Assembly (NCBI GenBank): GCA_002989075.1
Contig: PSQN01000004.1
Location: 682,001-746,000, forward strand
Length of the DNA: 64,000 nucleotides
DNA from: Arthonia radiata
Taxonomy: Eukaryota; Ascomycota; Arthoniomycetes; Arthoniales; Arthoniaceae
Direction of reading: 5' to 3'
Shown: in pieces, positions 1,751 through 25,394 of the stretch
How the letters are laid out: every line of letters begins with the position of its first letter
Position numbering within the stretch: position 1 is the first letter of the stretch
The notes under the pieces: generated by a model
Told to the model about the DNA's origin: nothing
What the model saw: the letters and a program-made list of their open reading frames with translations, nothing else
Databases searched by the model: none
Made by a program: the position numbers and the translations under genes

Positions 1751-1847
1751 GTCTCGGCTATACTTAATTATACCGGGTTAACCTCTAAGCGACGTTAATA
1801 AGGTACCTAACTGCCGGCCGCCCCCCTCGTAGGTTTAAAATAATTAG

Positions 1848-2047
1848 GATATAATCTAGATGTAGAGCAGGAAGCAGTTAGATAGCAAAAAGGGTCTAAA
1901 TAGGCCCTACTAGTATTTAAGCTAATTATTAAGGAGACCAGAAAGGGATGCGTCTACTAGAGAAAAGATATCCTTCTAGGATCGCAGCCTTCCTAAATAG
2001 GCAACATTCTGTCCTAATTCGCCATCGGGACGTCTATACATTACAAT
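1848..2047 (+). mobile_element. 200-bp fragment of pogo-type DNA transposon, reverse-oriented copy of 21755-21955
   Basis: The reverse complement of this stretch aligns along its whole length with about 21755-21955 of the large pogo element. Differences are almost all transitions of the C-to-T or G-to-A kind, as RIP would leave. In transposase terms it covers part of the DDE region, here on the plus strand. Similarity stops sharply on both sides, so this is a scrap captured in the fossil block and not a full element. A 12-bp inverted repeat (1823-1834 and 2230-2241) flanks it at some distance. Confidence 0.8.
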
Positions 2048-2099
2048 TTAGAAAGTCTATTTCTATTAACATTATAATAATTTCGATAAATTGTCTCTC

Positions 2100-4900: not shown

Positions 4901-6941
4901 ATTAATACTTAAGCGTCGCTTTTACTGCTTAAAGGCGAGTTTAAACGACTTCGATAAGGTAAATCTAAAGGTCTAATTTTTAAGGAGATTGTACTTTGAG
5001 TGTAAAGAGGCACGCTAGTAATGTTAGAATAACGTTTGAATCTTAATATCTTACTATTTAACTTTACTTTCGATAGTAATAATATTACTCTCTGAGCGGT
5101 AAAGGGCAACTTCGGGTCGACGATAATAGCGACGCCGCTGGTAGTTAAAATTCAATCAAAAGTTGATAGTGATAACTCCTTGCTGCGTTGAAGCTACCGG
5201 GCTTATAACCTAATAAGGTATATAGCTTTTATTATGTTCCGACTGGTATGGTAGAAAGGTAGGTACATAAGGATGAGACGGAAAATATAAGTGCGTCCAT
5301 CACCTGATCTCGATATATGCCTATTCAGGCAATTCTTCACCAGGCATCCCGTGTCTTGGCATGGCCATCTGGACTGGGCGATCCTGCACACAACACTTGT
5401 CAACCTATTCACCCTCTGCCGTGTGCCATGCAGAAAATGCTCCGTTAACTACGTGTTCTTTGAAAGCTTGAGCGCTAGACTATTGCGAGTGTTGCACGAT
5501 CGGGTATGCAAAGACAGTCCAGGCTCTACCAATTGTGTCAGGCTAGGTTGCAGGCCTATTAATTGGTAGAGCCCATCGCCATCAGCAGAGCCTGTTCGTT
5601 GAACCGGTAATGTTTTTACCCCAACACATGCATGCTGCGCCGGGTCTTTGCTCTCGATATTGACATCCGATTTCAAACCTATTTCTATGCAAGTGCTCGA
5701 CATCTTTGACAGCAACCGTGTCGAGGGCTGGACTTCATTACTTCAAGGGCTGGCAACTTATCCTGATATGCATAGTATGCCTTGTGTCAAAACTTGATGT
5801 CACACGGTCTACTAATCGCCAGCGAGTAAGTTCGGAGGGATTCTCCTTCCTCTTTGAAGTTCTTCATTAACCTACAACGCATGACACATACCATAGTGTA
5901 GTATCGTACAGTGACGAATGGAAACGATGTCGTTCTCTGCTACTAGCAACGGCCCGTGAGTTAGCGTTTCCCCCTAAGTACAAAACAGCAACACTTGACC
6001 TCATGATGCACAGACGCCCTCAGCAGCTACAGTCACCCTCAAATCAGCCAGCAATTGTGAGCACACCGAAGTCGACTAAACAAAAGCATCAAAGGGGAGT
6101 TTGACGAAGGTTGCGAGGTGCTGTGTCTAGCCTCACTCCCGGCATGTACAACCAAGGTACGGCTTGAGTGCTATGTAAAAGTGGACTGGTGTGAAGACGA
6201 AGGGCTTTATAGACAGAGAGCTCTCTGCTGGGATCCTTCGTGGCAGGCGCAAGGAAGTTGCAAGATGTCCAGTGTCGTGGAATTCACTGCATGCTCCGGG
6301 CCAATTTCTGCGAGACGCTAGCGGGGAATGCCTCGGGCCATTCAAGGTCTGACTGAATGCACAGCCAGCTGTCATTGCATACAGTTCCTAGAGAGGCTTT
6401 GTCAACTACCTCGTGTACAGACGGCTCTCGCGCAAGCCCGCCCTCGTATTCGGTCCTGCCCGCGTTACGAAGCGGAAGGGCTATTGACTCGATCGAGGTA
6501 ATGAAATAGCTTAAACGTTCGTCATCCCATGCTAGAGACCGGACGCTTCGCGAACGGTAATGTATGTGCCCTTGAAAACGTGGGCATCAGTACTAATCAG
6601 CGTGTGTTTCTCGCGTCATCAGCTTCTCGTCAACACAGTTGTAAGTGCAATTGTGTCCAGCAACGGCTTGACTGCTACCATACTTGCGCATCTCAGGGTC
6701 TTAAGTGAGTCCACCTATGCCACATGCAACGTATGGGCCCATGCAAGAGCGTGGATAGGCGAGCACCGGCGCCGCAACGATACCGAAATTGTCAGACGTT
6801 CGCTTTGCAACAATTCCTTGGATCGATGTTTGATTTCGTGTTCCATGTTCCTATCGTCAATGTCCGCCCAAATGCAACTCGCGCGGTGAAGATCATGCAG
6901 CAGGCGCAGCCGACAACAGCGGTTCCGGCCGTGGAACTAGT

Positions 6942-7474
6942 CTATCCCAGCGTGGATGCAGGAGACTGCCAGAAACTTAGCATAATTGTTTGCCAAGAGC
7001 ATCGGAACACATACCAGCCCCAGTGCTCGAAGATGCTATCCCTCCGTTCCCGAGCTTGACGAATGCTGTCCGACGGGGACATGATCTGGGATTGTAGATT
7101 TTCCAGATGCTGATCGGCATCCTCCAGACGCTGTTGATACTCTCGCCGCAGCCGTTCAAGACTTGCGTGGTTACACGGTAGACGGTGAGACAAGAAATGG
7201 AGGCCCATGCGCTCAATTCTGACAGATGGGCCATTATCATTCATTGGAAGTAGAGTGGTGAATAGATTAGATGAAAAGTGCAGACTGGGAACAGGAGTTT
7301 TGCTTTTGCAAAGGAAGCAATCTGATCTTCGGATGGCTCAGTCGTAAATGATCGGCCAAGATACAACCACCTCCGCTCTTGCGAGGCTTTGCGCAACCTG
7401 TTATCATCTTCTTTATCTGTCAAGATCACACATGAGTCCTGCCCTATCAAGAAATTGTTCCTACGGTTTGACAA
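6942..7474 (-). CDS. Possible hypothetical protein fragment with coiled-coil stretch
   Basis: Two neighbouring minus-strand open frames (7241-7474, then 6942-7244) look more protein-like than their surroundings. The second has a heptad-like Leu/Glu/Arg/Gln stretch around SLERLRREYQQRLEDADQ, typical of a coiled coil. I could not find a GT..AG pair that joins the two frames cleanly, so exon structure, start and even coding status are uncertain. No family is recognised. It may be a remnant of a longer gene. Confidence 0.2.
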
Positions 7475-8474
7475 ATGCAGTAGATAATTGAATGATAGTG
7501 GGCGACCTGAGATGCCCTACTTGCGGATTACGGCAACAGCACATATCTGTGCAGCCAACCTCAACACATCATTACACCCTTTCGGCGTCGTCGGATTTGA
7601 ATGCGAATCGCTCTTTCGGCTGATTAGAGCTCCAGCGCAGAACTAGTTTGGTATTCATGGGCATCATGCTGACACCAAGTGACTGGCAACTGAGGAGGCA
7701 GTCGAGAACGGGTGGTGTACGGCGTCAAGTGTATGCACTGTCGCATGGTGTTCTCAATGACAATCGGAGCCAGAACCTACACACTAATTGGGACTACACA
7801 CCTGGCGAGGTCGTGCTACTCCTACGCCGCAGGTGCCGTATCACCATCGTTGGGCCCTGGGGGAGGCATTTCACGGTCCCGGTCTGGATGAAAAAGACAA
7901 ACCGGCTCTTAGTATATGAATAAATGCTGCATTCATGGAAACCTACAATGCGCAGTGCTCAGTAACGCTGTCTCTCCATCTCCGCACTCGCTCGACTTGA
8001 GTACTAGGCGCATGCTGAGGGATGAGTGCTAACAGGTTTCGCCCCGAATGTTGTGCATGCCCTTCGTAGAACTGGCGAAGGCGGCTCAGTTCGAAATGAG
8101 CTGTCGGCATCCAGTGCCAGTATCGGTGCAGACCCTGACGCTGATACATATCTGGTCTTGATCTGGTCTCGCTTCAATTCGTATGTCTTCTTGCTGATGA
8201 CGAGATTGAAGGGGAAAACTGTGAAAAGTTCGAAAAAGAAAAAGGAGCGGTGATGCGGGTGGCAGCGGTTTTTTGGATAAAAACCTCTTGGAAGTGTATG
8301 GCTTTCGCTGTGGCATTTTACCACCTTTTGACCGTACCTTATCATGCAACGCGCAACGTGTCAAGAAGTAGAACTTTTGAGTCATTCGCGGGGTAATTTA
8401 GAGAAGGAGGAGAAAATTCGAGATGGTGGGCATATTGGCCGAAGCGCGCTCTTTTCGCGTTTTATGCCAAGCCT

Positions 8475-8532
8475 AAAGCGCCCACTATTTTTTAAGCGAC
8501 TAGTGCTGACGCGTTCTGGGTTCTGGACGCGT
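8475..8532 (+). promoter_or_regulatory. BTB-cluster upstream block and two MCB-like ACGCGT sites (gene 1)
   Basis: The block 8475-8501 (AAAGCG, CCCA, a T-run, then AAGCGACT) resembles blocks upstream of the other three tandem BTB genes. Two ACGCGT hexamers follow at 8509-8514 and 8527-8532. The block ends 106 bp before the ATG at 8607. ACGCGT is the MluI cell-cycle box bound by MBF (Mbp1/Swi6-type) in fungi; its use here is inference. Confidence 0.5.
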
Positions 8533-8606
8533 CCCCTTTCACTTGTCTTGATACATCCACGATACCCTCCATTGCCTCCATTGCCAGACTGGGTGGCAGC
8601 GCCAAA

Positions 8607-9530
8607 ATGCCGCTCAAGCGAAGCGCCTCACCTGTCGACATGAAGCCAATCAAACAGCAGCGCACCTCCTCCGGCCCAGCACTCAAGCGCGAACCCAGTC
8701 CCGAGCGCAAACATCAGCGCCTCGTCTATCCTTCCGACGACGAAGACGAGGATATAACAAGCCAATCAGATACCCACCGCGCTCAACTGCCACCTTTCCA
8801 AAACCGGCTCACGAGCGCATATATCGGTCGCCCAGATCCTCACCTCCACTGGCGTCTCGTTCCCCAACACCCATCCAGACCTCACTGACAATGCTCGTAC
8901 AGAGCCCTTTCAGGCCTCACAACCACTTTGATAGCCGTTAGCAACCACAGCCGACGTTTTACAGTGCACAGTGGCCTCCTCTATCTTCTCTGCACCGACT
9001 TCTATTCGCGGCCAACCCACGCACGCAATACGCAACGCGCCGTCTCTAACACGTCTACCCGACGCAGCGTTCCCGCTGAAAACGGGGAGAAAATCCACCT
9101 CCGTAACACTCAAGCTGCCGTCTGCGATCTCTTCGTCCAATGGCTCTACGAACCACATGATGGTGACGACGCGCTCGTGCCCGTAATCAAGGTGAATTAC
9201 TCCAGTAGTGAGATCTCCCTACATGATCTTGTTGAGTTGTACGACGTGGCCGATTACTTGAAGTGTTACAAGCTTAGCGTGGAGATCATGAACGTGGTCG
9301 CGGAAAGTGAGGGACGCTCGTATTCCGGTTACTCATCAGACGTGCGTGTTTCCGCACCTGACGCGGAGACGGTGACGTATCTGTACGAGAGAGCAGACGA
9401 GGATGATTTCTTCCGGAATGCCGCGGCGAGGGCGGTCCTGGCAAGGGGCGGGTTGGCGAGTGTGGACAACCCGCGGGAGTGGCCGACCGAGTTTTGGTAT
9501 GATGTTGCGTGTTTGCAGCAGCGGAGGTAG
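8607..9530 (+). CDS. BTB/POZ domain protein, tandem paralogue 1
   Basis: Probable exons are 8607-8853 and 8905-9530, giving about 290 residues. The N-terminus is basic and disordered (KRSASPVDMKPIKQQRTSS), then acidic. The second exon opens with the shared BTB start (PLSGLTTTLIAV), then FTVHSGLLYLLCTDFY, the LFVQWLYEP strand/helix and the DLVELYDVADYLKCYKL helix. The C-terminal module (YLYERADEDDFFRNAAARAV ... WPTEFWYDVA) is common to its paralogues. BTB proteins often act as CUL3 ubiquitin-ligase adaptors or transcriptional cofactors; nothing here shows which. The donor (GTCTCG) is weak, so the 51-nt intron is a best fit forced by frame and by alignment to the paralogue at 24197. The BTB core is the most diverged of the four. 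Confidence 0.7.
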
Positions 9531-9847
9531 GTGAGGTGGTCTGCGGAGGGCCTGTAGGTGAACAGCATTTACTGCAAGGCTGTATCTCGAAATTTGGGTT
9601 ATCAAATGCTTCTGAGTAAGCTGTTGTCGTTTGTAATCGATCTGGAATAATCTAATTGCCCAGTTTGTTTATTAGTTGCCTGCATAGGAACGGTGTTCTT
9701 GCTTGCTTATACAGCAGCACGTGGCGCACTAATGTATGATGGTTTATGAGCGCGTGGTGGGTTGCCTAGTCAAGAGGCTGCTTACTGCACCAGATTTGGA
9801 GATTTCCACAGTCGGCATGCTTTCCATGGACATCCGACGATGAGCCA
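9531..9847. other. Intergenic, no feature seen
   Basis: About 320 bp between BTB gene 1 and the crotonase remnant. No open frame, RNA gene or repeat could be supported. Confidence 0.5.
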
Positions 9848-9979
9848 TTGATCATAACGCTGCATTCAATCTCAGAATACATCCTTCACAGCTCACCACT
9901 ATCTCACACAGCTATCTTGCAATTTCTTGTCCGGCATCTTCACATCTTCGAGACGCTCCGCGCTGCACCCACCCTGTCC

Positions 9980-10540
9980 AACGCAGACAATCAACCCACC
10001 TTCAACCTCTTCACGCCCGAGATGTACCCCTCCCGGCGCGTCACCTTGCCGACGCCGAGCAAAACCCCAACCTCGAACTCCTCGTCGTCGACTGCGCCCA
10101 CGCTGACTACTCCTGCGCTCATATCGACCAAACACGCATGCACGAGACACCTAACATCCGGGCTTCGTGCCGCTGACGGAGGACTACCCATCGTTTGCGC
10201 CCCTCTTCCGAATCTGGACGTGATCATCATCGCGCAGATTCGAGGCCGAGCAAGGGGTATGGGCAGCGAGATCGCCTTGGCTGGTGACGTACGTTTCTGC
10301 AGCTGTGGAGAAATTGCTCTCACGATCGGGATTGGCGGGTGGCACAACGCCGGGATGCGGTGCGGTGGGTTGCCTCACCGATATCGTGACTTGTACCATT
10401 CGGATAAAACCCTTGACTGCTAGCGATCTCCGGTCTTGGCGGTGCAAAACTGGCCATGGGCCGCGAACGCGGATTCCACGTGATGATCGGATGGCTCCTT
10501 CAAGTCTTACGGGGACAGGCCTGCTCAATCAGTAGACGTG
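9980..10540 (+). pseudogene. Decayed enoyl-CoA hydratase/isomerase (crotonase) gene
   Basis: Pieces of a crotonase fold appear in order but in different frames. FNLFTPEMYPS lies near 10000-10035, EQNPNLELLVVDCAHADYS near 10065-10115, the oxyanion-hole type segment IIIAQIRGRARGMGSEIALA near 10220-10285, and a Gly-rich segment (GLAGGTTPGCGAVGCLT) near 10330-10380. Keeping similarity requires at least three frame changes, and no start or complete frame remains. The family normally hydrates or isomerises enoyl-CoA, in mitochondria or peroxisomes. This copy seems dead, unless unseen introns explain the frame changes, which I consider unlikely because no GT..AG pairs fit. The DNA composition is normal, so this is not RIP. 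Confidence 0.65.
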
Positions 10541-11826
10541 TCTCGCCACAGAGCATCATCTAATATCGCTGCATTCGGAAGTGTCCATAGCTGCGTAGAA
10601 GCCCTTGCGTCCCTTGTCCAGCGAAAAGGGAAGCTCTGGATGATCTGATTTCGTTGTTCCTGCGCCGGCGAAGACGTTGGGTATAAAGTCTCTCCAGCTA
10701 AGTCATATAGTTCGATCCAATGATCCAGCGATAATCCCTCAGAATTGTTGATCATGCTCGCAGCTCCGATCGCATCAAAAATGCCACGTCGTTGGAGGTA
10801 CTCCGCTTTGTTCCATGGCAAGGTTGGATGAGGTTGACGAAGCTTTGCCTTGAGCAGCTCGATAACGTCGAGAGGGCTCAGATTCAGCTTGCAATTCTTT
10901 TGGAAATATGACCACTCCTCGGTTCCTAGGGTACCATCCGGTCGGAGATAGTGAGCGTCATCATTCATCCAGGTGCGTGTGTAAGTTGGGTCTTCGAACA
11001 CCACCGGCAGCAGGAATCGGTAGAAGAAGACGTAAATCTCAAGTCGCTCAACGGCAAGCACATTACTTTCCAGGCCGCCGCTCCACTCTCGCTTCGTCTG
11101 CACATCCAGTGAGAACATGTATTGCCATGATGTGCTGATGGATCTCTGGAAAAGCCAATGTAGCTCCATTGCGCACCAGTACTCGATGACAGCCGTGTAA
11201 AACCTACGCCGCCTCAAATTGTGCAAGCTGTCAGGTCTCTGACACGATCCGGTTGGTGAGTCGAATACGAGTTTAAGGAGCTCACTGGTCGTAGGCCCAC
11301 TTGCCAGATTTATGTCACCATAATCGTACTGCAACTCGACCTGAGCGAAATGTTCTCGAATTCGGGGATCCGCATAGACAGCAAAAGCGGACTGAACTCG
11401 GCGCCAACGATCAAGAATCTGCCTCAACTGATCTTCTCCAATTGTCGGCTTGGTATCGTTCAAAATGTCAACCAGTAAAGCCGAGCTAATGCGTTCACTT
11501 TCTGGAAGCTCTCTCCGCGTCATATAGACTGATCTCAGCTCAGCGCTGACTTGTAGGAGTCGGCAGAGTTGGATATCCCGAGCGTATACAGGCGACCGCG
11601 ACTGTTGTAAAAGTGAAGCATCAGCATATCTAGTACCAGTACAGGAGTACAGGACTATTACTCTTACAATAATGCACTTGAGGATGTTTTCACGTAGAGG
11701 CCTGTCTTGAACAGGCGCGCGGACTTGTCGACACGACAAAGAGAGGTGGGAGACATCATCAATGCTCTCCAGCTGACAATAAATGCCAGTGAGAATTTCT
11801 AGAGGCACATGAAGAATACTTGCCAT
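10525..11826 (-). CDS. F-box protein of unknown target
   Basis: The frame starts at the ATG at 11826 with MASILHVPLEILTGIYCQLE and continues IDDVSHLSLSCRQV, a clear F-box at residues 4-40. F-box proteins bring substrates to SCF (Skp1-Cul1) ubiquitin ligases. The rest, about 390 residues, is a helical region with no recognised repeats, similar in layout to the many orphan F-box proteins of Dothideomycetes. A 66-nt in-frame segment at 11602-11667 has a strong donor (GTAAGA), a CTGAT branch-like site and a CAACAG acceptor. It is probably an intron, so the mature protein is likely 411 rather than 433 residues. The gene is divergent from BTB gene 2 and shares its 240-bp promoter. Confidence 0.8.
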   Translation of the reverse strand: MASILHVPLEILTGIYCQLESIDDVSHLSLSCRQVRAPVQDRPLRENILKCIIVRVIVLYSCTGTRYADASLLQQSRSPVYARDIQLCRLLQVSAELRSVYMTRRELPESERISSALLVDILNDTKPTIGEDQLRQILDRWRRVQSAFAVYADPRIREHFAQVELQYDYGDINLASGPTTSELLKLVFDSPTGSCQRPDSLHNLRRRRFYTAVIEYWCAMELHWLFQRSISTSWQYMFSLDVQTKREWSGGLESNVLAVERLEIYVFFYRFLLPVVFEDPTYTRTWMNDDAHYLRPDGTLGTEEWSYFQKNCKLNLSPLDVIELLKAKLRQPHPTLPWNKAEYLQRRGIFDAIGAASMINNSEGLSLDHWIELYDLAGETLYPTSSPAQEQRNQIIQSFPFRWTRDARASTQLWTLPNAAILDDALWRDTSTD

Positions 11827-11950
11827 GCTAATGACGGTACGCTGGCGTGGCTGGTGCTTAGTTTGTAGGGGACGTGTTTGGCGGGTAAAGGAAATTGTGT
11901 TCCGCCTGCCCCGCAGAAGGCAAGCCTTGCCCCCACACGTGACCCAACAG

Positions 11951-11999
11951 AAAGCGGCCCACCGTTTTGTCAACGACTTTAGACGCGTCAACTACGCGT
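11951..11999 (+). promoter_or_regulatory. BTB-cluster upstream block and two MCB-like sites in shared divergent promoter (gene 2)
   Basis: The block 11951-11978 is nearly identical to 22820-22847 before BTB gene 3 (26 of 28 positions). ACGCGT hexamers follow at 11983-11988 and 11994-11999. ACGCGT is palindromic, so the sites could serve both the F-box gene on the left and BTB gene 2 on the right. Confidence 0.6.
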
Positions 12000-12063
12000 T
12001 GCCCTTCTTAACTTCTACTTCTTCTGACATCCGCGCTCGTTCACAAGTCCCGGCAACGCAACC

Positions 12064-13012
12064 ATGACACAAAAGCGCACCTCACAGCAAAGAGCCACAG
12101 AAGGCTCAATCATTGCCTGAGGACAACCCCGCAAAGCGTCAACGCTGCGCCTCAGAAGACCCATCTAGAAGCAAGAGCACCGCACATGGAGCTTCCGCCC
12201 AGCTCAACGAGACGTCCGGACTCCCAAAATACCACATGCACATTAATGATCACAACCTAAACGACGGCGTCGAGGAGGACCTCCTTCTGAACACCATCAA
12301 GTGAGCCTCCCTTTGACTCTTCACATACATCAAGCTTACACATATTAGAGCCCTCTCTGGGCCTATAGCCACTATTCTTGTCGGCCCACCTGGCTTCGCC
12401 GAACGCTTCAGTATCCACGAAGGCCTCCTCAGCCTAGATTGCGGCTTTATTAAAGGCGCATTCCGCGGCCGTGGCAATTTCCGCGAGAAGAACGAGCTCA
12501 CTATCTCCCTCCCGGAGACTGAACCAAGGACCTTCGATTTGTTCGTACAGTGGTTGTATGCAAACATCAACGCTGACAACGACAACCACACAATTATACT
12601 GCGCTACAACGACGAATTTCGTTCTGCTGGTGTCGATGACCTATTGCGGTTGCATTGGCTCGCAGACTTTCTGCAGTGCGAAGTGCTAACAAGGTCTGTC
12701 AAGGATGCGTTGAAGCATGACGGAGAGGACATGTCGACGGAGCAGGCGCCGACTGTGAATGAGGTTGAATATGTGTACGACAACGCGGATGAGGATGAAC
12801 AATTCCAGAAAGTGGCGTTGGCGCGTTTCCTACGCCAAAACGAGAATCTTGACGAGGTTGCAGACCCGGACGATTATCCAGCACGGTTCTGGTTCGATGT
12901 GGCGAAGAAGGAGAGGGAGATGAGAAATGAGATGAAGAAGATCGAAGCAAGGGCTGCTCGGTCGAGGCCGCGGGTGGTGGGGTTGGGTGACAACCCGAGG
13001 GGTCTCATGTAA
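12064..13012 (+). CDS. BTB/POZ domain protein, tandem paralogue 2, N-terminus apparently frameshifted
   Basis: Exon 2 (12349-13012) holds a good BTB domain (ALSGPIATILVG, FSIHEGLLSLDCGFIKGAFR, DLFVQWLYANI, DDLLRLHWLADFLQCEVL) and the shared C-terminal module (YVYDNADEDEQFQKVALARF, DDYPARFWFDVAKKE). The tail is basic and helical. The intron 12301-12348 (48 nt, GTGAGC..TTAG with a CTTAC branch-like site) joins it to an N-terminal exon. The ATG homologous to the other paralogues is at 12064 (MTQKRTSQQ), at the expected distance from the shared promoter block. That frame ends in a stop at 12118-12120, while the frame leading into the BTB is +1 to it. An in-frame ATG at 12236 could start a shorter protein lacking most of the disordered tail. 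So this is either a frameshifted gene still able to make the domain, a sequencing error, or a young pseudogene. Confidence 0.7.
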
Positions 13013-13443
13013 GAGTAGATCAGAGCACGTGACTCAGCAGGAATGGCGTTGATCCAGGGGTTGGATCGAAACCATGTCGCTGGCGTTGCGAAAAGGTCCT
13101 ATCCCGTAAGAGGGGTACAGCATGCGAGCTTCCAAGTCTACAGTTCCAAGGTCTCAACGCTTAGGTATGCCGAGGTGCACCAACAATGGCTCCTTCAACT
13201 GTTGCGCTCCTTCCGTGCTTCGACACCGCACGAAGACACATGGCGCGCTTGGCCCGCGCTGCTAATGTGTAGGAGCTGCGGTAGGCTATCTTGTACTGAG
13301 ATTTCGCAAAAGTATTCCATGACTCGTTTGTGGGTCTAAGACAGAGATCTAACATAAAAAAAACGCCGAATTCGCAGGAGCTTGCGGCGGTCTGTCATTT
13401 GGTATTCGACTCTTCCCGATTAGGAAGCATAACTACTTTGTAC
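13013..13443. other. Intergenic between BTB gene 2 and the transposon
   Basis: No gene or repeat is supported. Base composition is normal up to the TA at 13444-13445 where the pogo element begins. Confidence 0.5.
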
Positions 13444-13445
13444 TA

Positions 13446-13580
13446 CCCGCACCCTCCTCACTCGGTCCTATCGGACATAGAATCCTACGCTATTCCGCTT
13501 CGGGTTTCCTCATTCGTCGGTGCTAGCTGAAGCTAGCACCCCACGCTTATACAAAATCTCCGGTCACACGAGATCGATTC
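13446..13580 (+). repeat. Left terminal inverted repeat of the pogo element
   Basis: Matches the reverse complement of 22666-22800 over 135 bp with about three differences. It contains an internal near-perfect hairpin, GTGCTAGCT-GA-AGCTAGCAC, at 13520-13539. Confidence 0.95.
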
Positions 13581-13874
13581 GCTTATATTAGCTACTTATA
13601 GATCGTAACAAGCTCAGAACTCGATAATCTGCTCACCAATCGATAGCTTGGGTTCCAATCTTATAGCTGGCTTGCTTGTTTTAGCAATTAGAGCCCTAGC
13701 TTGTCCCGTTCCTGCGTTCTCCGCGCGCCGAGCTTCCCTTTGATCGCCCTCCCGATCCCGCTTTCCAACCATTGTTCTTAGAGGAAGCCGTAACCACGCC
13801 TCCTTTCTGTATCTAGCGACCATCGCCCTTCTTGCGCTTAAGTTCCTCACGTCTGCGCGCTTCTAATTGAATAG

Positions 13875-14346
13875 TGTAACGCCGGTCGCTGGGAGGACCG
13901 AACTAAGGCTCACTTGCCTTGTGTGCTTGTCGACCTTGGTGGTGGGTGTCTCGTGTGCTAGAGACTAAAAGGTAGGAGAGGCGAGACAGATTATAGAAAG
14001 TAAGAGGGGCTTAATGGAGATAGACAGAAGGTGAAGTATGTTACTTAAATAGGGTTAAGGAACTTATATTCAAATATTGAGTTAATAGACTAAAGTCTAT
14101 CCTAAGGTTAGCTATTAGTCTAACTATATAGTCTAAGGTATATAGAGAGAGTTCCTTTGTGTTCGCTAATTTAACAATGCTTATATTAGGTTTATAAGGA
14201 ATGTAGGCTCTTATAGCCGTCTTGTTCGATAATGCCTACGGCGGGTTTATAGGCTTAGTCGGGAATAATGCTGGTAGGGCTGAGATAATTGACGGTAGTT
14301 AACGCTTAGACGTACGCTAGGCCGTCTGGGGCTGGTGCTCGTAACA
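13875..14346 (-). repeat. LTR of the Gypsy fossil (3' LTR in element orientation)
   Basis: 472 bp, starts TGTAACGCC and ends GCTCGTAACA on the plus strand, with TG..CA termini. It is a direct copy of 20554-21025, with mostly transition differences. Preceded by the AATAG target duplication. Confidence 0.95.
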
Positions 14347-17300
14347 CAATCCCCCCTCTTTTAGTTAAATTGTCCTTAATTAACCCTTAGCCTTTTAAAT
14401 ACGTATAAGTTACGTTTCGTCCCCCTCTTTATAACTAATCTGTAAGTCGCTATACCTCGTATAAAGTCTGTTACTGCGGGTCTTAACAAAAAGTATAGTT
14501 AATACCTGTTGATTAAAGCCTACGGTATTAAAATGCCTCCTTGTTCTAGATGTGTGTCGACTAAGGAAAGATGTCTAGTTCAGTTTAAGAAGGCGATGTG
14601 TTCGATGTATACTCGGGACAAAAAGAGTTGTAATTTATGAGTATTAATAGCAGATAATATGCCTCGTTGCTGTCTTCTTGTAGTAACTGAAACTAACTTA
14701 GTTGCAGCGCGTTTGGTTTATTTTTAATATTCCTCTTAGTCGGCTGCCCTTTAGCGCGCGAAGCGCTAATTACGTTCGTTAAAGGCTTAGGTAGCAGCGT
14801 TCGTTGCGGCTGTACAGCGTAACCGATTTAAGGTCCGAAAGTTAAAAAAGGAGGTTAAGAAGACTCGTGCGCGGACAGCAGCGAAGTTAGCTTAGAATAA
14901 GTTGTTGGAGTAAGAAGAGCTTACTACGTCGATGGCTGGTAGTAATATATTTAAATGTCTAAGTAGGTTATCTATTGACTTTCGGAGTAACCCCTACTTA
15001 GTGTTGGGTAGCGGTCTTGTAACGTAGTAGGCTAGTTTGTTTAAAGATAATCTGGGTGCCGGTGAAGTACACTAGATAGTAAATTAGAGTATTAATGCTG
15101 CTACAACCGACTAATATTTTAGTTTCAATACTGTCGAATAGTAGCTTTATAGTTAGTTAGGTTTTATTCTGGTTCCCATTAATTTTTATGTTCAGAATAT
15201 CCTTTCTATTTTACAAGATACTGTCGTTTGCCTCGGTATTACCTATAAGCTCGAATCGTTTTAACCTCGTACTCGGGTTCTTAGTTGTTAGAAAGGATTT
15301 TAAGGTTGGATCATTCTACTTCTCGGGAGTAGGCTAGTTTTAACAGCGCTATATAGAATATAGGATGTATTCTTATTGTCTTTAGGAGTTTTAGTTTAAA
15401 TGTTATAGGTCTTAATTGCTATAAGATTTTAAACAGTTTTGTCTTAGTGTAGTCGAGTTTCTTACTTAGTCTAATAGTTTTTAAGTTTCTTATAAGTAAG
15501 TAAGCTCTTTCCCCCTCTTTTATGCTTATATTTAGGGTAGTTCTTAATTTATTATACTATCGTCTTGTTCGTTCGTTAATAAACTCGCTATTAGACTTTA
15601 ACTGCTAATATAGGGTTTTTATGCTTATAGCTATTCGTATAGCTATCTTGTTTTCGATAGTATTGTGTAGCTATCTTCCCTAAAGAGGGTGATAGCTATA
15701 TAAGGTATAGAACGGAGTTATCTTAGTTATATCGTTTTTAATGTTGTTGTACGCTGCTTGCGCTACTAGTAGCAATTATACCTAGTCGTTCTGCTAATAG
15801 TTAATATACGCCCAGAGATACTGTTCTAGCGTTTAATTCGTTTATTCTGTTTGTCTGTCTGTTTGCGGGTAGAATAATATTAACATTTTTTATTTAGTCT
15901 CTAGTTGTTGTATTAGGGATGTTTAAAATTGTAAGACAAATTTCTAGTCTCTGTCTAAGATAATTCTTTGCGGTTAACTATAGTTAGCTAAGATAATCCG
16001 TAGAAAGGTATACGCTAGTTATTCTAAGTTGCTAGCTTCCTTGTAAGGTACAAAGTATGCGTATTTTATTAGTTTATCGCATATAACGAGGATAGCGTTG
16101 TAAGCTACTTCTATAAGTAGATTCTTAGATATTAGTAGTTTGGTTATAAAGTCTAGTAAGACCGTATACTATAGTCTCTCGGATATCTCTAGTAGTTGTA
16201 GTTTACTGTATAGTAAATGCCTTGGGTACTTAGTTCTTGCGCATATATCGCATTCTTAGATATAATCCTCGACGTAGTGTCGGATTTTTAGAATGTAATA
16301 CGTTCTTATAATCTTTTCTATAGTATTGTCGATGCTTTTGTGTCCTTTAGTTTAGTTATTGTAAAAGTTACTAATAATGTTTCGGATTAGATTCCTTGGG
16401 ACGTAGATTTTGCTTTAGAATTCGTAATAGCCTCTATTGTTCTTAGTTAATCCTAGGTGTCGTTTCTCGTTTTCCTAGTAGGTCTTAGGGTCGTTTAGGA
16501 TGTCTAGGATTCGGCTATTTAGTTTAATAACAAACTCGGTTGTTATAGCTAATTAATTGTATCTAATCTTATTATTCTGTTCTTAGAATATTGCGTGCTC
16601 GATATATTCCTTGTTATTAAGGTAGTCTAGACGTCGGCTCAGTGCGTCGGCTCTATCGTTCTCAGAACCTTTCTTGTAGGTAATAATAAAGTTGTATAGA
16701 GCTATAGTTTCTAACTATCTAACTTGTCTGCGATTAAGCTTCTTCGTTGTTATAAAGTAAGTTAGGTTTTTGTGGTCCGTGTATACTATAATTGTATAGT
16801 TTGCTCCTTTTAGGTAAGCTCGCTATATTTCGAATACTGCTATAATAGCTAAAAGCTCTTTATTGTAAATGTTATAGTTCTGTTCTATGGGTAATATCTT
16901 TTTTGAGTAGAAAGCTACTGGTCTAAGCTTTCTTTCCTTGTTGTTTTAACTTATGTATACTCTAATCGTATAGTCTAACGCGTCTATTTCTATGATAATT
17001 GGTAGGTTAGGGTCAAATATCGCTAGTACAGGCCCGATCTTAAAAGCTTCCTTAAGCTCTTTAAATACTAATTGTTCTTTTTGCGTTTAAAAGAATCCTA
17101 TCGATTGTTTTGTTTGTTGAGACAGTGATGCTGTAATTCGGCCAAAGTTAAATATCCACCGCCTGTAGTAATTAGCAAAACTAAGAAACTGTTGTAGTTA
17201 TTTCACATTCTTTGGTATAGGCTAGGTTAGAACGGATTAGATCTTTGAATCTTCTATTTAGAGACCGTGCTCGGTAATTATAAATCTAAGAAATTTAACG

Positions 17301-20300
17301 GATTGTTGATGGAACTGGGTTTTCTCGATGTTAATTTGTAAATCGGCACGCGCTAATTTTTCTAATACCTTTTTAATATGTTTCTTATATTCTTCTAGTA
17401 TATAGCTGTATACTAGGATATCGTTTAGATAAGCAGTTATAAATATATCTAAGTAACTACTAAGTGTATTGTTAATTAGTTTCTAAAACGATACTAGTGC
17501 GTTTATTAGCCTAAAGAGTATAACGCAATACTCGAAAAGTCTGTGTCTAGTACGGAAGGCTGTTTTCTATTCTTTACCTTTCTTTATACAGATTAGGTTA
17601 TAGGCTCCTTGTAGGTCAAACTTAGTGAACTATTGCGCGTTATACAATCGATCTGTAATCTCGTCGATACGTAATAGAGGATATCGATTTTTAATAGTTA
17701 CTCTGTTTAACTGTCTATAATCTATATAGAGTCGTAGTTTGCTATTTTTCTTTGGTACAAAAAGTATCGGGTATCCGACTAGTAATGTTAATTTCTGGAT
17801 AAATTCTTTCTTAAGATTTTCTTTGAGGTAGTCGTAGAGCGCTTAATTTTCTGCTTCTAATAGAGAGTATATTAGACCGAATGTTGGCGTTTTGCCTTCT
17901 TATAAAGGTATTGTGTAATCCTACAGTTTATGTTCTAGTAGAGCTAAGTTTGGCTTAGCTTCTTTAAACAGGTGTTAAAATTGATCGTATTTCTTAAGTA
18001 TCTTAGTAATTAACTAAATACTCGTCGTCGTATAGAATCGTTGACATACAGTCGTCTCTTATTTATACTTGCGTGTAGCTGGCTACAGACAAGATACTGC
18101 GTTAGACTCCTCTTGTAGGATGTCTAAATGTTGGAGTGTAGTAGTACTAACCCGCGTAAGTTCTTTATCGCGCTCTTTATTCTTACTACTAAAGATAGCT
18201 TATAGAGTATCCGTTCCGTAGAACGACTCTTGTTTAGAGTGCTTGCACCTAGTAAAGAGGAGTTTCTTAGTTCTCTAATTTACTTCTAAATTATATTATT
18301 GCAACTAAGATATACCTAGTATAGCGTAGTACTAGTTAATTTCTACGATATTGTAAGTAATTTCTTCTTAATAGTTCCTAATTGTTATACCTATTGATAA
18401 AGTTTTGTAGTCGACTCTTCTCTCTGCCCCTCGAAATCTAAACAGTACGTAGGGTAATTTCTTCTTTTGTGTTTATATCTAGTACTCCTTAATGCAGCGT
18501 ATTGAGATAAAGTTGCCTGTTGCGTCTAAATCGATTATAATTTTAATATTCCTATAGTTTATCGTTGCCCGAGTGTATAAGTATGTTCCGTAAGAAGCTA
18601 AGCTTATACAGAGCTAGATTCTTAGAGAGTCTAACCGTTGAACGGGCCGGTACTACTGCCCTTAGAGCAGTCGGCCTAGTCTTTTCCCTGTTAATTGTGT
18701 ACGTTCTAGAGTAATCTAGGTACTAGAACCTATTGTTAGTTAATTTGCTATAAGAATTCCTGTATAAGGTGTTCTAATACTACTCTTATTATAACATCTA
18801 GTTTGTTGTTTGCGATCCCTGCTTTAATTATATAATTATTGCTAGTTAAAACCTATCGTGTTTATAGGTTGTATATTGTTAGTCGAAGATATTAGTACTA
18901 GCTGTGTAATTCTAGACCCCTAATAAGGTAGTCTACTAGTCGTCGTAGGCGTAAGTAAATATATCTTAGAATATTATTAATGTCTCTATTAGCGCTTAAC
19001 TTTCTATTATAGAAGGCTAACTAACAAAGTCTCTATATTATTCCTTCTCAACGGATTGGGGTTTGTTCTTCTTAGTTAGTATTGTCCTCGAGCGAGGATT
19101 CTATACCATTAGAATCTATATTTTTGTCTTTAAGTCGTTATCTTGTCTATAACGTATCGTAGCTGCTATCTTGCTTAGCCTCTACGGTCTGTTCTTCCTT
19201 AAATTCTCCTTGGGTTTCTAGGTAAGGCGACCTAGGTCGTCCTCGGATAAGGCCTAGTTTTTGTGTCGAACCTTGTTTTAGAGATATCGGTTTCTTTAGC
19301 TATTATCCTAACCCCAATTTGTTAGATTCGTGGGTCGTATAATCATTATTGTAGCACGTAGTTTAGAATAGTGTTTTATAGGGTGCAACGGTATCTCGTA
19401 CCTGCTACCTCGGAATAGTGCGGTTGATGTTGTTTCAGTCCTATAGGTTCTATTGTTTCTATTTTATTTGTCGTTCTTTTATTTCCTTTTATAACTTAAT
19501 GTCTGTATTCCAGTTCTTGTGTAAGTTAAACAAGTTCTATTTGTTGTGCTTTTCGTTAGAAGTAACCTGGTAGGTGTCCTCCTATGTCTAAGTAGTTATG
19601 TTAAAATATTGTCGTAGGAAACGGAGTTTCTAGGGTCGATCGTTGCACTCGTTTCTGCTAGTGCTATTAAACTATTGTTTCTTGGAACAGCATTCTTTAA
19701 CTTAATGCCCTGGTTTTCCGTAATACAAGCATAGCTTATTCTTTATTCTGTGTTCTCGTTCCTGGTTATTTAGTTTCCTACAGAGCTTCGTAAAGTCTAA
19801 TTCTATTAGATTACTCTAGTCTTGTCGTAAGTTGTGCTTACTCCGAATCTAAGCAAACTTACCTAAGTTAGTTCCTTTCTTTTCTAACTGTCGTTCGAAG
19901 TTACTATTGTTAATTTCCTTGGCTCGTTCTATAAACTTCTCTAGTTCAGTAAACTTTTCTCTACGAATATAGATAATTTCCTTAATATAGTCCTTTAAGC
20001 CTTTATAAAAGGCGTCGACCAGGGGTCCTTTATCCTATTCGGTTTAGTTAGCATACTATAGGAACTTAGCGGCGTATCGGCTAGTTGGTCCTATCTAACG
20101 GAGTATCTTAAGTTTACGTACAGCAGTACGCCTAGAATCTGTATTCCCGTACATCTGTCGGAGCTTTTGCTAAAACGCAGCAAAGCTAAAGAAGAGCTCG
20201 TTAGTCTCTTCTTATTGTTTGTTAGGTGCCTTATAGAGGTAGTCTTCGAGATAGAAGTTAAACTATTTATATGCCTCGCTATTTATATAGGATACGGCAA

Positions 20301-20553
20301 ATAAAACTATAGTGCTGTTATTCGGGAACTAATCCTTATAAGTCTTAAAATATATAGCTAAGCGTATTAGAAATAAAGTAAGTTCAGAACGTTTATTAGA
20401 GAAGCTTTTGCCTATCTTAGTGTTAACGTCTAATATCTTACCTATAGCGGTTATTTTACTAGCTAGCCTGTCCGTAGCGTTGCGGCTGTTGAGTGCTAAA
20501 GTAGTAGACATAATTAATCTACTTTCTCTGCTTTCGTAGCGAGTCTATTAAAG

Positions 20554-21025
20554 TGTAACGCCGGTCGCTAGGAGAACCGAACTAAGGCTCACTTGCCTTG
20601 TGTGCTTGTCGACCTTAGTGATAGGTGTCTCGTATACTAGAGACTAAAAGGTAGGAGAGGCGAGACAGATTACAGAAGGTAAGAGAAGCTTAACAAAGAT
20701 AGATAGAAGGTAAAGTACGTTACCTAAATAAAGTTAAGAAACTTGTATTTAGATATTAAGTTAACAGACTAAAGTCTATCCTAAGGTCGGCTATTAGTCT
20801 AACTATATAGTCTAAGGTATATAGGGAGAGTTTCTTTGTGTTCGCTAACTTAATAATGCCTATATCGAGTTTATAAAGAATATAGGCTCTTATAGCCGTC
20901 TTGTTCGATAATACCTACGGCGGGTTTATAGGCTTAGTCGGGAATAATGCTGGTAGAGCTAAGATAATTGGCGGTGGTTGACGCTTAGACGTGCGCTAGG
21001 CCGTCTGAGGCTGGTGCTCGTAACA
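20554..21025 (-). repeat. LTR of the Gypsy fossil (5' LTR in element orientation)
   Basis: 472 bp, same termini as 13875-14346 and followed by the AATAG target duplication. Because RIP, not clock-like mutation, dominates the differences between the two LTRs, LTR divergence cannot date the insertion. Confidence 0.95.
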
Positions 21026-22665
21026 AATAGAATCGAGATCTTTAAGAGCTAGATCCCGTTCGGTCATTGTACGCGAACTAGCACGCACAAGCTGGTTAAA
21101 TGCGTCCCAAGTCGGGTAAACCTGACGATCGGGACCTTGCAGGTACTGTACCTAATCTACGATCGAGTTAACGTATTGATCTAGTTTTTGTACTGTTTAG
21201 GGATTTTTAGGCGGCTTTTCCTAATCGGCATCTGGTTCCTGATAGGCTTTATACAGGTCCGGTATCTGATTAAGTACCTTACTTGCATTTAACGGCCAGA
21301 TTCCTGTTTTAGCAAAGCCTAAGCGTATAGTTGCCTCTTTAAACGTGTTCCTGCGTATCTCTGGAAGCTTATTAAGAAAGTCTATCTTCCTAAACTTGGT
21401 TGCGCCGGAACGTACTACCCGATCGAGCACCTACGCGTAGTAGTGCTTCTTAACTTAAAAGATCGATACGTTAAGCGGCTGTATTAGGTGTGTTATATGC
21501 GCTAGGAAGCAGAAGATCTTAATCTTGTAATTATCGGCATACTACACGAACTCTGCAGTAGCTTGGCCGGCAAACCTATCTAAAAGAAGCAGTCGATATG
21601 CTCTCTATTGCCTCTTTAAGGTAGCTTTGTTGAAGTGCTGTAGGTACTCAAGCATAATATTATTATTAGCATAGCCTGATTCGGAAAGAGCAAGCATCGT
21701 CTCGCCTCCGATATCTGTTCTGGCCCAGTATGCCTGGTGAACGACGCCTGTGTGATGCATAAACGTCCCGATGGCGAATTGAGACGGAATGTTGCCTATT
21801 TGGGAAGGCTGCGATCCTAGGAGGATATCTTCCCTCTAGTGGACGCATCCCTTTCTAGTCTCCTCAATAATTAGCTTGAACACCAGTAGGGCCTATCTAG
21901 GCCCTTTTTGCTACCTAACTGCTCCCTGCCCTACACCCAGATTACAGCCTGGAAGCACCACAATTGGGTCTAGCTTCGATCTAGTTGCAGAGATTGTCTT
22001 AATTAGGGTAACTAGTGTACGATCTGTTGCGCTTAGAGCTACTACTCTTGTCGTATGCGATCGTACTACAACCCAATTCGAAGCTCCTATCCCGACGCGG
22101 AAGCCTGCTTGGTCGATATTCTAGATATTATGCGGGTCGATCGCATACTCCTGTATTAGCTCCCTAAGCTCTTGATACCACTTTCGGATAGTATCTCGGT
22201 TCTGCGCCAGGTACCGCGTCATTTCCATTGGCTTCTGGCGTGCTAGCTTATACTGAGGATGCCGAGCTAGCCATCTTTGGCACCAAGACTTCGAAACTTG
22301 GGGGAGAGGTGCGTCTGTACCTGCATTTGACGCTCGCGCTAGGATCGAATTGGCCGCCGATACGATCATACGACGGGTCGGAGCGAGGTAGATCTTCCCT
22401 AAGCGATCAATATAGCTACAGAGAGCTCTATCTTGGGCAGTTGTAAGCCGCTCGGGGGTATTATGGCGCTCCCAGATCGATCCGCGCTTCCGAAAGCGGG
22501 CATAAAGCGTCGCGTATCGGATATTATTATCGCGAGCCAGCTGCTTAAAGTTAAGCTTCTTCTTTAATCGATTGGTATGTAGAAGCTCCTGGATCTTCTG
22601 TTCCTGTTTCTGTAGATCTCGTGCCATATCTGAAAGTTTGAAGCGTAGAAAGATGGTAGGGAGGT

Positions 22666-22800
22666 GAATCGATCTCGTGTGACCGGAGATTTCGTATAAG
22701 CGTGGGGTGCTAGCTTCAGCTAGCACCGACGAATGAGGAAACCCGAAGCGGAATAGCGTAGGATTTTATGTCCGAAAGGACCGAGTGAGGAGGGTGCGGG
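22666..22800 (-). repeat. Right terminal inverted repeat of the pogo element
   Basis: Inverted copy of 13446-13580, with the same internal hairpin at 22707-22726. The transposase start codon (22627) lies just inside this repeat. Confidence 0.95.
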
Positions 22801-22819
22801 TACGCAGGGTGGAATTTGG

Positions 22820-22868
22820 AAAGCGGCCTACCGTTTTGTCATCGACTACCAACGCGAACTGTACGCGT
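22820..22868 (+). promoter_or_regulatory. BTB-cluster upstream block and MCB-like site (gene 3)
   Basis: The block 22820-22847 is nearly identical to 11951-11978, and ACGCGT follows at 22863-22868. It lies between the pogo element (ends 22800) and the ATG at 22924, so the insertion stopped just short of it. Confidence 0.6.
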
Positions 22869-22923
22869 CGAAAGGGGTAATCTGTTTACGTAGCGTTCAA
22901 CGTTCACTGTACAATAGATCAAC

Positions 22924-23827
22924 ATGTCTCGTAAAAGATCGTCGCAAGGGGTTCCAGAAGACACACACGCAAATTTTACTCCATCAAAGCGTCCACGGCG
23001 CTCGACAAGCCGCGCTGCCCCGAAAGGTGATGGCGTCAAGCCAGCGAGGAAGCACCAAAAGCGCAGCCAGGACGACATCCCAGAGTACTACGGCGAGGTC
23101 GATGATGTAGACTTCAAAGATGATGATGACGGCGATGCTTACTGGAGGGTCGTGGGCCTTCGCTCACGGGAAGCGTCTCTCCGGCCCCGTCGCTACCGTC
23201 CTGGTAGGAGTCGGCAATGAGAAACGCTTCACCATCCATGAAGGGTTACTGTGCCTCCGCAGCGTCTTCTTTCGCGGCGCATTCCGCAGTAAGGGCTGCT
23301 TCAAAGAGCAAGACGACCTCACCCTTCGGTTGCCGGAAGTAGACCCGCAGGTGTTCCACCATTTCGTGCAGTGGCTCTATGGACATCTCAACCCACGCAC
23401 GCGCTGCAAGCTTACCATTAAATACGAATATGGGCCACGCGATGCGCCTGTAGACGACCTATTGCGCCTGCATCGGTTGGCCGACTTTTTGCAGTGCGAC
23501 TGCCTCATTGCGTCCATCCAGCAGGACCTGCTCGAGTTCGATTATGGCACGCGGGGCCCAGCGCTTCCGTCGGTGGAGGAAGTGGCGTACGTGTACGCAA
23601 ACTCGGATGATGGCGAGAAGTTCAGGAATGCGGTGGTGCGTAGGCTACTGAAGCGAATGCCGGACGTCAGTGCGGTCAGTGCGGTCAGTGATCCGGACCA
23701 GTATCCTACACGGTTCTGGTTTGATGTTGCGAGTGAGCAGAAAAAGCCAACAGCGTACGCTGGCAATCGTTCGAGCTTGGGGTATGTTCCAAGATATCGC
23801 GAGGTTCCAGAAGGGGATTCGGATTGA
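22924..23827 (+). CDS. BTB/POZ domain protein, tandem paralogue 3
   Basis: The N-terminus is basic (MSRKRSSQG, PSKRPRRSTSR) then acidic. The BTB domain (RLSGPVATVLVG, FTIHEGLLCLRSVFFRGAFR, HHFVQWLYGHL, DDLLRLHRLADFLQCDCL) and C-terminal module (YVYANSDDGEKFRNAVVRRL, DQYPTRFWFDVAS) are complete. The two parts are in different frames. A 67-nt intron at 23107-23173 (GTAGAC..GGAAG, with a GCTTAC branch-like site) joins them in frame, and exons 22924-23106 and 23174-23827 give about 278 residues. An alternative 25-nt GT..AG segment at 23149-23173 also restores frame but is too short for a normal intron. The domain lies at the same place relative to the intron as in its paralogues. Confidence 0.75.
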
Positions 23828-24090
23828 TGTTTGGCGGTGTGTTCGTCTATCTGATGCTAGAAATTGGAATGTTGGGTTGGCGCATTAAAACCTATTAGGA
23901 AGCACGATTACCGTTCACTACGCAAGCTGCTGCGGGGGCTCCACGAGTATTAGCTTGTAAGTACTCAACGCTTGACGCGAATCTTGCATGTGCGCGGGTA
24001 CTGCTCTAAAGAAGTGACTTTGAAGCACACTGGAGCGGCAGCCTGCAGGCAGGTATCCCTTCTGCAGCAAGGTCAAAAGCAAACGACTGT
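23828..24090. other. Intergenic, no feature seen
   Basis: Short spacer between BTB genes 3 and 4; nothing supported beyond the promoter block that follows it. Confidence 0.5.
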
Positions 24091-24121
24091 AAAACGGCGA
24101 CCCAGCGCTTTTTAAGCAACT
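24091..24121 (+). promoter_or_regulatory. BTB-cluster upstream block, divergent form (gene 4)
   Basis: AAAACGGCGACCCAGCG, then a T-run and AAGCAACT, aligns best with the gene 1 block (8475-8501). It ends 76 bp before the ATG. No ACGCGT is present here, unlike the other three genes. Confidence 0.4.
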
Positions 24122-24196: not shown

Positions 24197-25105
24197 ATGC
24201 CACACAAACGACCCCCACAACAGGACAGCTTGATACCTGAGGGCACAACTACAAAGCGTGCACGACACACTGCGGACTCAGACATTGGCGACAACCCCGA
24301 AGAAGGTCCCATTGAGGAGATCGTTCAGCTTGACTTCAGCGGAGAAATGCCACCGAAGAGCAACGACAACACCTTACCTGATCATTACGAGCATATTGAG
24401 GATGGCCAACTCGACGGTGAAGACGAAAACAAGCGCCTGGCAGTCTCCTGGCAGTAAGCGCGTGCACTCCCCACCATTACAACTCTAACGACCCCCAGAG
24501 CTCTCGCCGGGCCAACAGCCACCGTCATCGTCGGTCGCTCAGAAAACGCCAGAACCTTCACCATCCACAAGGCCTTATTATGCACGTACAGCCACTTTTT
24601 CAAAGGCGCGCTGAGGGGTCAGTTTCGTGAGAAAGACGATCGCACCGTGCGCCTCCCCGAAGCGGATGGCCGCATCTTCGAGCTATACACGCAATGGCTG
24701 TACATCCGGCTAGCCGGGGGAGCACATTCTGAGCTAGAGTTCCGGTTCGACGACGGCTTCGGCTACGCAGCTGTCGACGACCTACTGCGGCTGTACCGGC
24801 TTGCGGACTTCCTCCAGAGCACCCAGCTCATCGCGGATGTGGAGCAACATCTCAAGGAGGGCTCAAAGGACGCGCCATGTGCCGACGAGGTCAACAAAGT
24901 GTACGAGGAATCGACGGACGAAGAGCCGTTTCGAGCTGCGGTGGTTCGGAGGATGCGGAAGAAACATAAGACGTTCGGATCGGTGACCGATGCTGAGGAT
25001 TTCACCGCGAAGTTCTGGTTCGATGTGTTGCGCGAGGAAACGAAAGGCAAGGAGGACGATGTCAAGCTTGCTCCACTTGTCAAACACGCTCGGAACCATG
25101 CGTAG
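24197..25105 (+). CDS. BTB/POZ domain protein, tandem paralogue 4
   Basis: Exons 24197-24453 and 24499-25105 give 287 residues. The 45-nt intron has a clean GTAAGC donor, a CTAAC branch site and a CCCAG acceptor, and is the best-supported intron of the family. The N-terminus is disordered (MPHKRPPQQDS, TTKRARHTADSD, then acidic). The BTB domain spans about residues 86-200: ALAGPTATVIVG, FTIHKALLCTYSHFFKGALR, ELYTQWLYIRL, DDLLRLYRLADFLQSTQL. The C-terminal module (VYEESTDEEPFRAAVVRRMR, EDFTAKFWFDVLREE) follows. It is closest in plan to paralogue 3. A CUL3-adaptor or transcription-linked role is known for BTB proteins in general; no MATH, Kelch or DNA-binding partner domain is visible. Confidence 0.88.
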
Positions 25106-25394
25106 AGCCGTCTGGTCTCATCATGGTCTGGCGATTCGTCATTCTCACCAAGAGCAGAAGGTCTGCATCACGAACACGGCTCCGTCTTCGAAGCTCGCGT
25201 GCTCAGTGTGCATGCTATTCAAAAAGTCATCCGGCTAGCTTGCATGTGTTTAAAAGGCTGGACCTTGATCTCATGCTATGCGGATCGACTTCGTACAGAG
25301 TTCCTTCCCATTCTTGTGCACAAGCAGTCCCATGGGTATCATCAAACAAATGCAACGCTTCTTATGCAAAGGACCTCCTCTCTCGTACTTTTCA

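Follow-up and report, generated by a model that had tools for sequence, protein, structure and literature searches.

Four BTB-type genes stand in tandem on the forward strand of a 64-kb stretch of Arthonia radiata contig PSQN01000004.1 (hereafter the window), and each appears to be preceded by the same block of about 28 bp. Is this a regulatory element that the genes hold in common, and if so, what would read it? All counts, scans, null distributions and specificity tests given here were made within the window. Our finding is a conserved promoter element with boxes of a known type: the block and, downstream of it in genes 1–3, a pair of CGCG boxes. We regard it as about an even call that block and boxes form one inherited promoter module of the tandem BTB family, read by a block factor together with an APSES-domain factor, most likely MBF. 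Such a module, conserved for longer than the coding sequence behind it, would offer a handle on what the BTB family does, and when; it predicts that the paralogues are co-expressed and that Mbp1 or StuA occupies their promoters. To our knowledge, the roles of expanded fungal BTB families are largely open. Where one comparison lists an expanded BTB family, it appears merely as an expanded orthogroup (PMC11412873), and among the papers that word searches of an open-access library listed, none describes a promoter block common to fungal BTB genes.

A block shared by four promoters

The blocks and the genes that follow them are:

8475–8501, forward strand: conserved block of gene 1, shortened by one base after AAAGCG; its core agrees with that of each other block at 16 of 22 positions
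11951–11978, forward strand: conserved block of gene 2, 26/28 identical to that of gene 3
22820–22847, forward strand: conserved block of gene 3, 26/28 identical to that of gene 2 and 17 bp from the end of a transposon
24092–24121, forward strand: conserved block of gene 4, the weakest copy, with no ACGCGT after it; placed by the unsupervised search and the matrix
8607–9530, forward strand: gene 1, the most diverged BTB-type paralogue (tblastn to gene 2, E = 1.4e-21)
12064–13014, forward strand: gene 2 (BTB by Pfam), predicted intron 12301–12348
22924–23827, forward strand: gene 3 (BTB by Pfam, with the top score of the four)
24197–25106, forward strand: gene 4 (BTB by Pfam), predicted intron 24454–24498

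The blocks end 105 (gene 1), 85 (gene 2), 76 (gene 3) and 75 bp (gene 4) before ATGs at 8607, 12064, 22924 and 24197, and in none of the genes does another ATG intervene. Their centre is T-rich throughout, and the blocks of genes 1 and 4 are weaker, with matches at 14–16 of 22 positions. Positions are as the sequence-only reading had claimed, with the gene 4 block placed at 24092–24121; its count of 26/28 identical bases between genes 2 and 3 was repeated with the same result.

An unsupervised, ungapped star search of the 150 bp upstream of each gene, uninformed of the place of the block, recovers it in all four promoters. Compared with random sets of independent window segments, the quadruple scores 52/66 with words of 22, a length taken from the core chosen by eye, where the best of 1500 random quadruples reaches 45 (0/1500); with words of 28 it scores 64/84, against a random best of 53 (0/1500). 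Even under an inflated null, in which the random segments overlap one another, the quadruple is matched in 0/600 cases and the triples in 2 to 5/600. The triple of genes 1, 2 and 4 gives 0/1500 (words of 22) and 1/1500 (words of 28), and that of genes 1, 3 and 4 gives 1/1500 and 6/1500, respectively. Single pairs are far more uneven. With words of 22, random pairs equal or exceed the observed score, per 3000, 0 times for pair 2/3, 8 for 1/2, 100 for 1/4, 102 for 1/3, 545 for 2/4 and 1749 for 3/4. Gapped local alignment over 250 bp upstream gives, per 4000, 0 for 2/3, 98 for 1/2 and 424 each for 1/3 and 1/4, the pairs 2/4 and 3/4 not being aligned at the block. The only strong pair is 2/3, and pair 3/4 alone shows nothing. 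Together, these comparisons establish that four genes share the block at a similar position. Gene by gene, the sharing is certain for genes 2 and 3 and likely for gene 1; for gene 4 the case needs the joint test together with the position of the block.

The block is also specific to these promoters. With a matrix of the four sites, the blocks score 27.9–31.2 and all other window positions, on both strands, at most 13.6. When each site is left out in turn it still outscores all the rest of the 127,958 window positions, though narrowly so for gene 4 (16.8 vs 15.0); the 22 matrix columns had been selected by eye on these very sites, and the matrix thus demonstrates specificity, not independent discovery. 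These scores bear on the possibility that we are looking at an element of the core promoter or the transcription start (a TATA-like T-run plus an initiator) that is common in the genome and reflects no gene-specific regulator. A place 75–105 bp before the start with no ATG between, as well as the T-rich centre, would suit such an element in all four genes. However, when the 500 bp upstream of 19 open reading frames (ORFs) in the window were scanned, 16 lacked the block, the best antisense score being 6.4 and the best sense score 13.3, the latter from one of the overlapping ORFs in the set that are probably not genes. ORF starts were taken as first ATGs, and early introns could put a true start upstream. 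The remaining three are gene 3 itself and two reverse-strand ORFs, 10525–11826 and the transposon ORF 22121–22627, which diverge from genes 2 and 3 and meet their blocks in antisense. Moreover, genes 2 and 3 conserve the GC-rich half of the block (AAAGCGGCC), not the T-run alone. A general core-promoter element is unlikely from this test inside the window, and the suspicion that the block might be frequent upstream of unrelated genes is not borne out for the 16 other ORFs. The same 16 have no ACGCGT within 500 bp upstream; they include a further member of the family, which serves as an internal control:

38687–39632, reverse strand: fifth BTB-type gene, lacking both block and ACGCGT in its 500 bp upstream

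Block, coding sequence and flanks

In genes 2 and 3 the block is more conserved than the coding sequence, and nowhere is the case stronger than in this contrast with a saturated coding sequence. The BTB exons of the two genes have an amino-acid identity of 0.43, a nucleotide identity of 0.53 and a proportion of synonymous differences (pS) of 0.71, and they are identical at 16/45 fourfold sites; pS is 0.65–0.80 across all six gene pairs, that is, saturated. The best ungapped 28-mer in their coding region reaches 24/28. A 26/28 match has P = 3.4e-10 if bases agree at the rate of the fourfold sites and P = 6.2e-6 if they agree at that of the coding sequence as a whole (0.53).

Since only pair 2/3 is strongly alike, one could suppose a recent segmental copy or a short gene conversion between these two promoters, and put the likeness of genes 1 and 4 down to chance. 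We tried this explanation and rejected it: against 26/28 in the block stand the fourfold sites and, in the 18 bases before the block, 5/18 identities (one of these bases in gene 3 being the end of the transposon). The sequence-only reading had itself named a recent segmental copy as a threat to its claim; this fails on saturated synonymous sites and on flanks that do not align beyond chance level. The triple of genes 1, 2 and 4, from which gene 3 is absent, also keeps its rarity among random sets. The 32 bases after the block, in which 15 are identical between genes 2 and 3, take in the CGCG boxes. The boxes of genes 1–3 and the transposon lie at:

8509–8532, forward strand: two ACGCGT boxes of gene 1, at 8509 and 8527, 18 bp apart
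11983–11999, forward strand: pair of ACGCGT boxes before gene 2, spaced 11 bp from start to start
22852–22868, forward strand: ACGCGA (22852) and ACGCGT boxes before gene 3, likewise spaced 11 bp from start to start and placed relative to the block just as those of gene 2 are
13444–22802, no strand assigned: DNA transposon of 9.36 kb, with 137-bp terminal inverted repeats and an ORF with a Tc5-type DNA-binding domain

Of those 15 identities, 12 fall in the boxes (12/12, in ACGCG and TACGCGT) and only 3 in the 20 bases elsewhere; identity is lost in the spacers and returns exactly at the two boxes, which fits selection on binding sites and not a recent copy. Taking these points together, we consider a copy or conversion very improbable.

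The CGCG boxes and their candidate readers

Genes 1–3 each have two WCGCGW boxes downstream of the block and within 100 bp of the start. In both gene 2 and gene 3 the boxes start 5 and 16 bp past the block end, which establishes the shared register; the 11-bp spacing would correspond to about one helical turn. The sequence-only reading had seen ACGCGT after three of the four blocks, which holds for genes 1–3, although it left the second box of gene 3, ACGCGA at 22852, uncounted. ACGCGT is not in general excess (11 observed in the window vs 15.3 expected from shuffles), so that the argument rests on clustering: 5 of the 11 fall in three of the four 110-bp upstream stretches, those of genes 1–3, whereas 0.88% of other 110-bp windows contain one and none contains two, the background being 6001–13443 plus 22803–63889, i.e. 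without the AT-rich parts and the transposon. The binomial probability of finding ACGCGT in 3/4 promoters is 2.7e-6, computed post hoc. Pairs of WCGCGW at most 18 bp apart are weaker evidence: 4 were observed, one of them outside the promoters, against 0.69 expected, with P (3 or more) = 0.03, in a test that is approximate, since all 43 sites in the window were distributed over 48.5 kb. Also of note, more CGCG sites lie upstream of the gene 1 block (8347–8464), with ACGCG at 8349 and TTTTCGCGTTTTA around 8456; by eye they resemble SBF/MBF sites.

The boxes resemble the MluI cell-cycle box (MCB) promoters that MBF (Mbp1–Swi6) reads in ascomycetes, with paired ACGCGT/ACGCGW boxes less than 100 bp before genes 1–3, ACGCGT upstream of the start in 3/4 promoters and clustering beyond chance. 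They differ from them in that the targets are BTB genes rather than replication or G1 genes, in the additional conserved 28-bp block, in the lack of boxes in gene 4, and in being known from sequence alone. Zymoseptoria tritici is a Dothideomycete. In its genome, four ACGCGT sites 13–15 bp apart within a long terminal repeat insert are suspected by the authors of driving a gene (PMC5656749). One ascomycete comparison reports the MCB as enriched upstream of G1 genes in all of its species (PMC526180). The C. albicans form of the motif is given as ACGCGW in a paper that also argues for an MCB-like ancestral motif (PMC5448814); ACGCGW covers the ACGCGA box of gene 3. In filamentous species, the M. 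oryzae homologue PCG2 is described as contacting the core CGCG (PMC4862756), Swi6 and Mbp1 of Beauveria bassiana as interacting and both nuclear (PMC8273693), and Arthrobotrys AoMbp1 as binding a promoter with CGCG but without ACGCGT (PMC12565038).

The same boxes could be bound instead by StuA or another developmental APSES factor, in which case the module would be the same, but the genes would follow conidiation or development and not the cell cycle. The StuA response element is quoted as (A/T)CGCG(T/A)N(A/C) (PMC10715145, PMC11641030, PMC4631450), and seven strand-wise matches to this consensus cover 5/6 boxes, each fitting on at least one strand. By arithmetic, however, about three quarters of random palindromic ACGCGT sites would fit the consensus on one strand or both, and the match therefore does not discriminate. 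Furthermore, 5/6 boxes are full palindromic ACGCGT, which exceeds what the consensus asks, and the 11-bp spacing in genes 2 and 3 is a further difference from the StuA element. Sequence cannot choose between the two factors; we find MBF a somewhat likelier reader of the boxes, and think the developmental alternative possible but doubtful.

We therefore return to the inherited module read by a block factor and an APSES factor, most likely MBF, and to what weighs against it. Genes 1 and 4 are supported jointly, while the pairs 1/3, 1/4, 2/4 and 3/4 are weak or absent. The gene 4 promoter lacks any box. A further WCGCGW pair with the same 11-bp spacing, at 51539/51550 (51539–51555), lies where no gene was recognised, its ORFs standing outside the Pfam search. 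Genes 1 and 2 look partly decayed, and expression of full-length protein is not assured. Finally, cell-cycle control by MBF is unproven, because 5/6 boxes fit StuA too and gene 4 has no box. Of the common regulator that the sequence-only reading had proposed, what stands is a shared and selected element, with good support in genes 2 and 3 and joint support across the four; the MBF and cell-cycle half does not stand in the same way.

We envision that the module was inherited from the ancestor of the tandem BTB gene family and that purifying selection would have kept it while the proteins diverged. The 28-bp block would be bound by one or two factors, and the paired WCGCGW boxes by an APSES-domain factor, with MBF (Mbp1 with Swi6) as the first candidate and StuA as the next; we infer such binding, the identity of the factor and the timing of expression from the arrangement of the sites. 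Binding by MBF would give expression around G1/S. Gene 4 may have lost box control while keeping a weaker block, or it may use another site. A bolder version, which we put forward tentatively and think rather less probable than the module itself, is a lineage-specific regulon, in which a block factor and paired MCB boxes about one helical turn apart would place an expanding nuclear BTB family, resembling CUL3 adaptors, under G1/S control, with the module under stronger selection than the proteins.

The genes and their surroundings

The BTB assignment is uneven across the array. Genes 2, 3 and 4 pass the Pfam BTB (PF00651) cut-off of 20.5 bits with 22.1, 38.8 and 30.9 bits, respectively, and BTB is the sole domain above cut-off in the scanned exons; for genes 1–4 the scan took in the BTB exons only, leaving out the lysine/arginine-rich N-terminal exon. 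The BTB exon of gene 1 has no Pfam match at E 0.1, and the scanned 3' exon of the fifth gene has no BTB match. Gene 1 is 26–31% identical to genes 2–4 and is therefore about as distant from them as the fifth gene, which is 25–32% identical to the other BTB-type genes. The tail of the fifth gene may form a coiled-coil, with Pfam matches below cut-off. The BTB region of gene 3 was modelled with AlphaFold from a four-sequence alignment; the model has a mean pLDDT (predicted local distance difference test) of 70. In a structure search, its best matches include the BTB domains of KBTBD2, SPOP and KEAP1 (best E 7.4e-6), and Skp1 was also matched. Both the Pfam scores of genes 2–4 and this model agree with the BTB/POZ family and its CUL3-adaptor fold, from which the low TM-scores (template modelling scores) of the model, about 0.34–0.44 by query length, and the missing Pfam match of gene 1 set them apart. 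A BTB profile run against non-fungal collections, which are silent on fungi, gave 41 pattern matches in IMG/VR viral contigs and 27 in bacterial and archaeal genomes, 0 confirmed in either.

All four proposed starts read M-x-x-K-R, and this supports them as homologous. The four starting ATGs of the sequence-only reading are upheld to this extent; that of gene 2 (12064) opens just 18 codons before a stop (12064–12123), and the BTB frame offers its first ATG at 12236. No GT occurs between ATG 12064 and the stop, so that a GT intron cannot bypass it. In gene 3 the N-terminal frame differs from the BTB frame, and four donor–acceptor combinations could join them, including a 67-nt intron at 23107–23173. 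Gene 1 requires an intron, and the only donors found are GTCGCC or GTCTCG. The predicted introns of genes 2 and 4 sit at the same point, just before an A-L-S/A-G motif.

The transposon splits the intergenic region of genes 2 and 3; with the insertion removed, the coordinates would put genes 2, 3 and 4 about 0.37–0.55 kb apart. Its inverted repeats are 134/137 identical (3 mismatches), and a TA target duplication is probable. Its end is 17 bp from the block of gene 3, whose own promoter is thus now about 120 bp long. The interior (14001–21000) is AT-rich, with a TpA/ApT ratio of 1.73 as after repeat-induced point mutation (RIP), a bias far less marked at the two ends, as if a younger element enclosed older ones. 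Together with short introns and the gene content, AT-rich stretches of this RIP-like kind point to fungal DNA. RIP changes C to T before A. One of the two differences between the blocks of genes 2 and 3 is a change of this kind, which may be RIP leakage from the transposon. A second AT-rich, RIP-like block occupies positions 1–5000 (GC 0.31, TpA/ApT 1.73), and genes 1 and 2 consequently sit between two such blocks.

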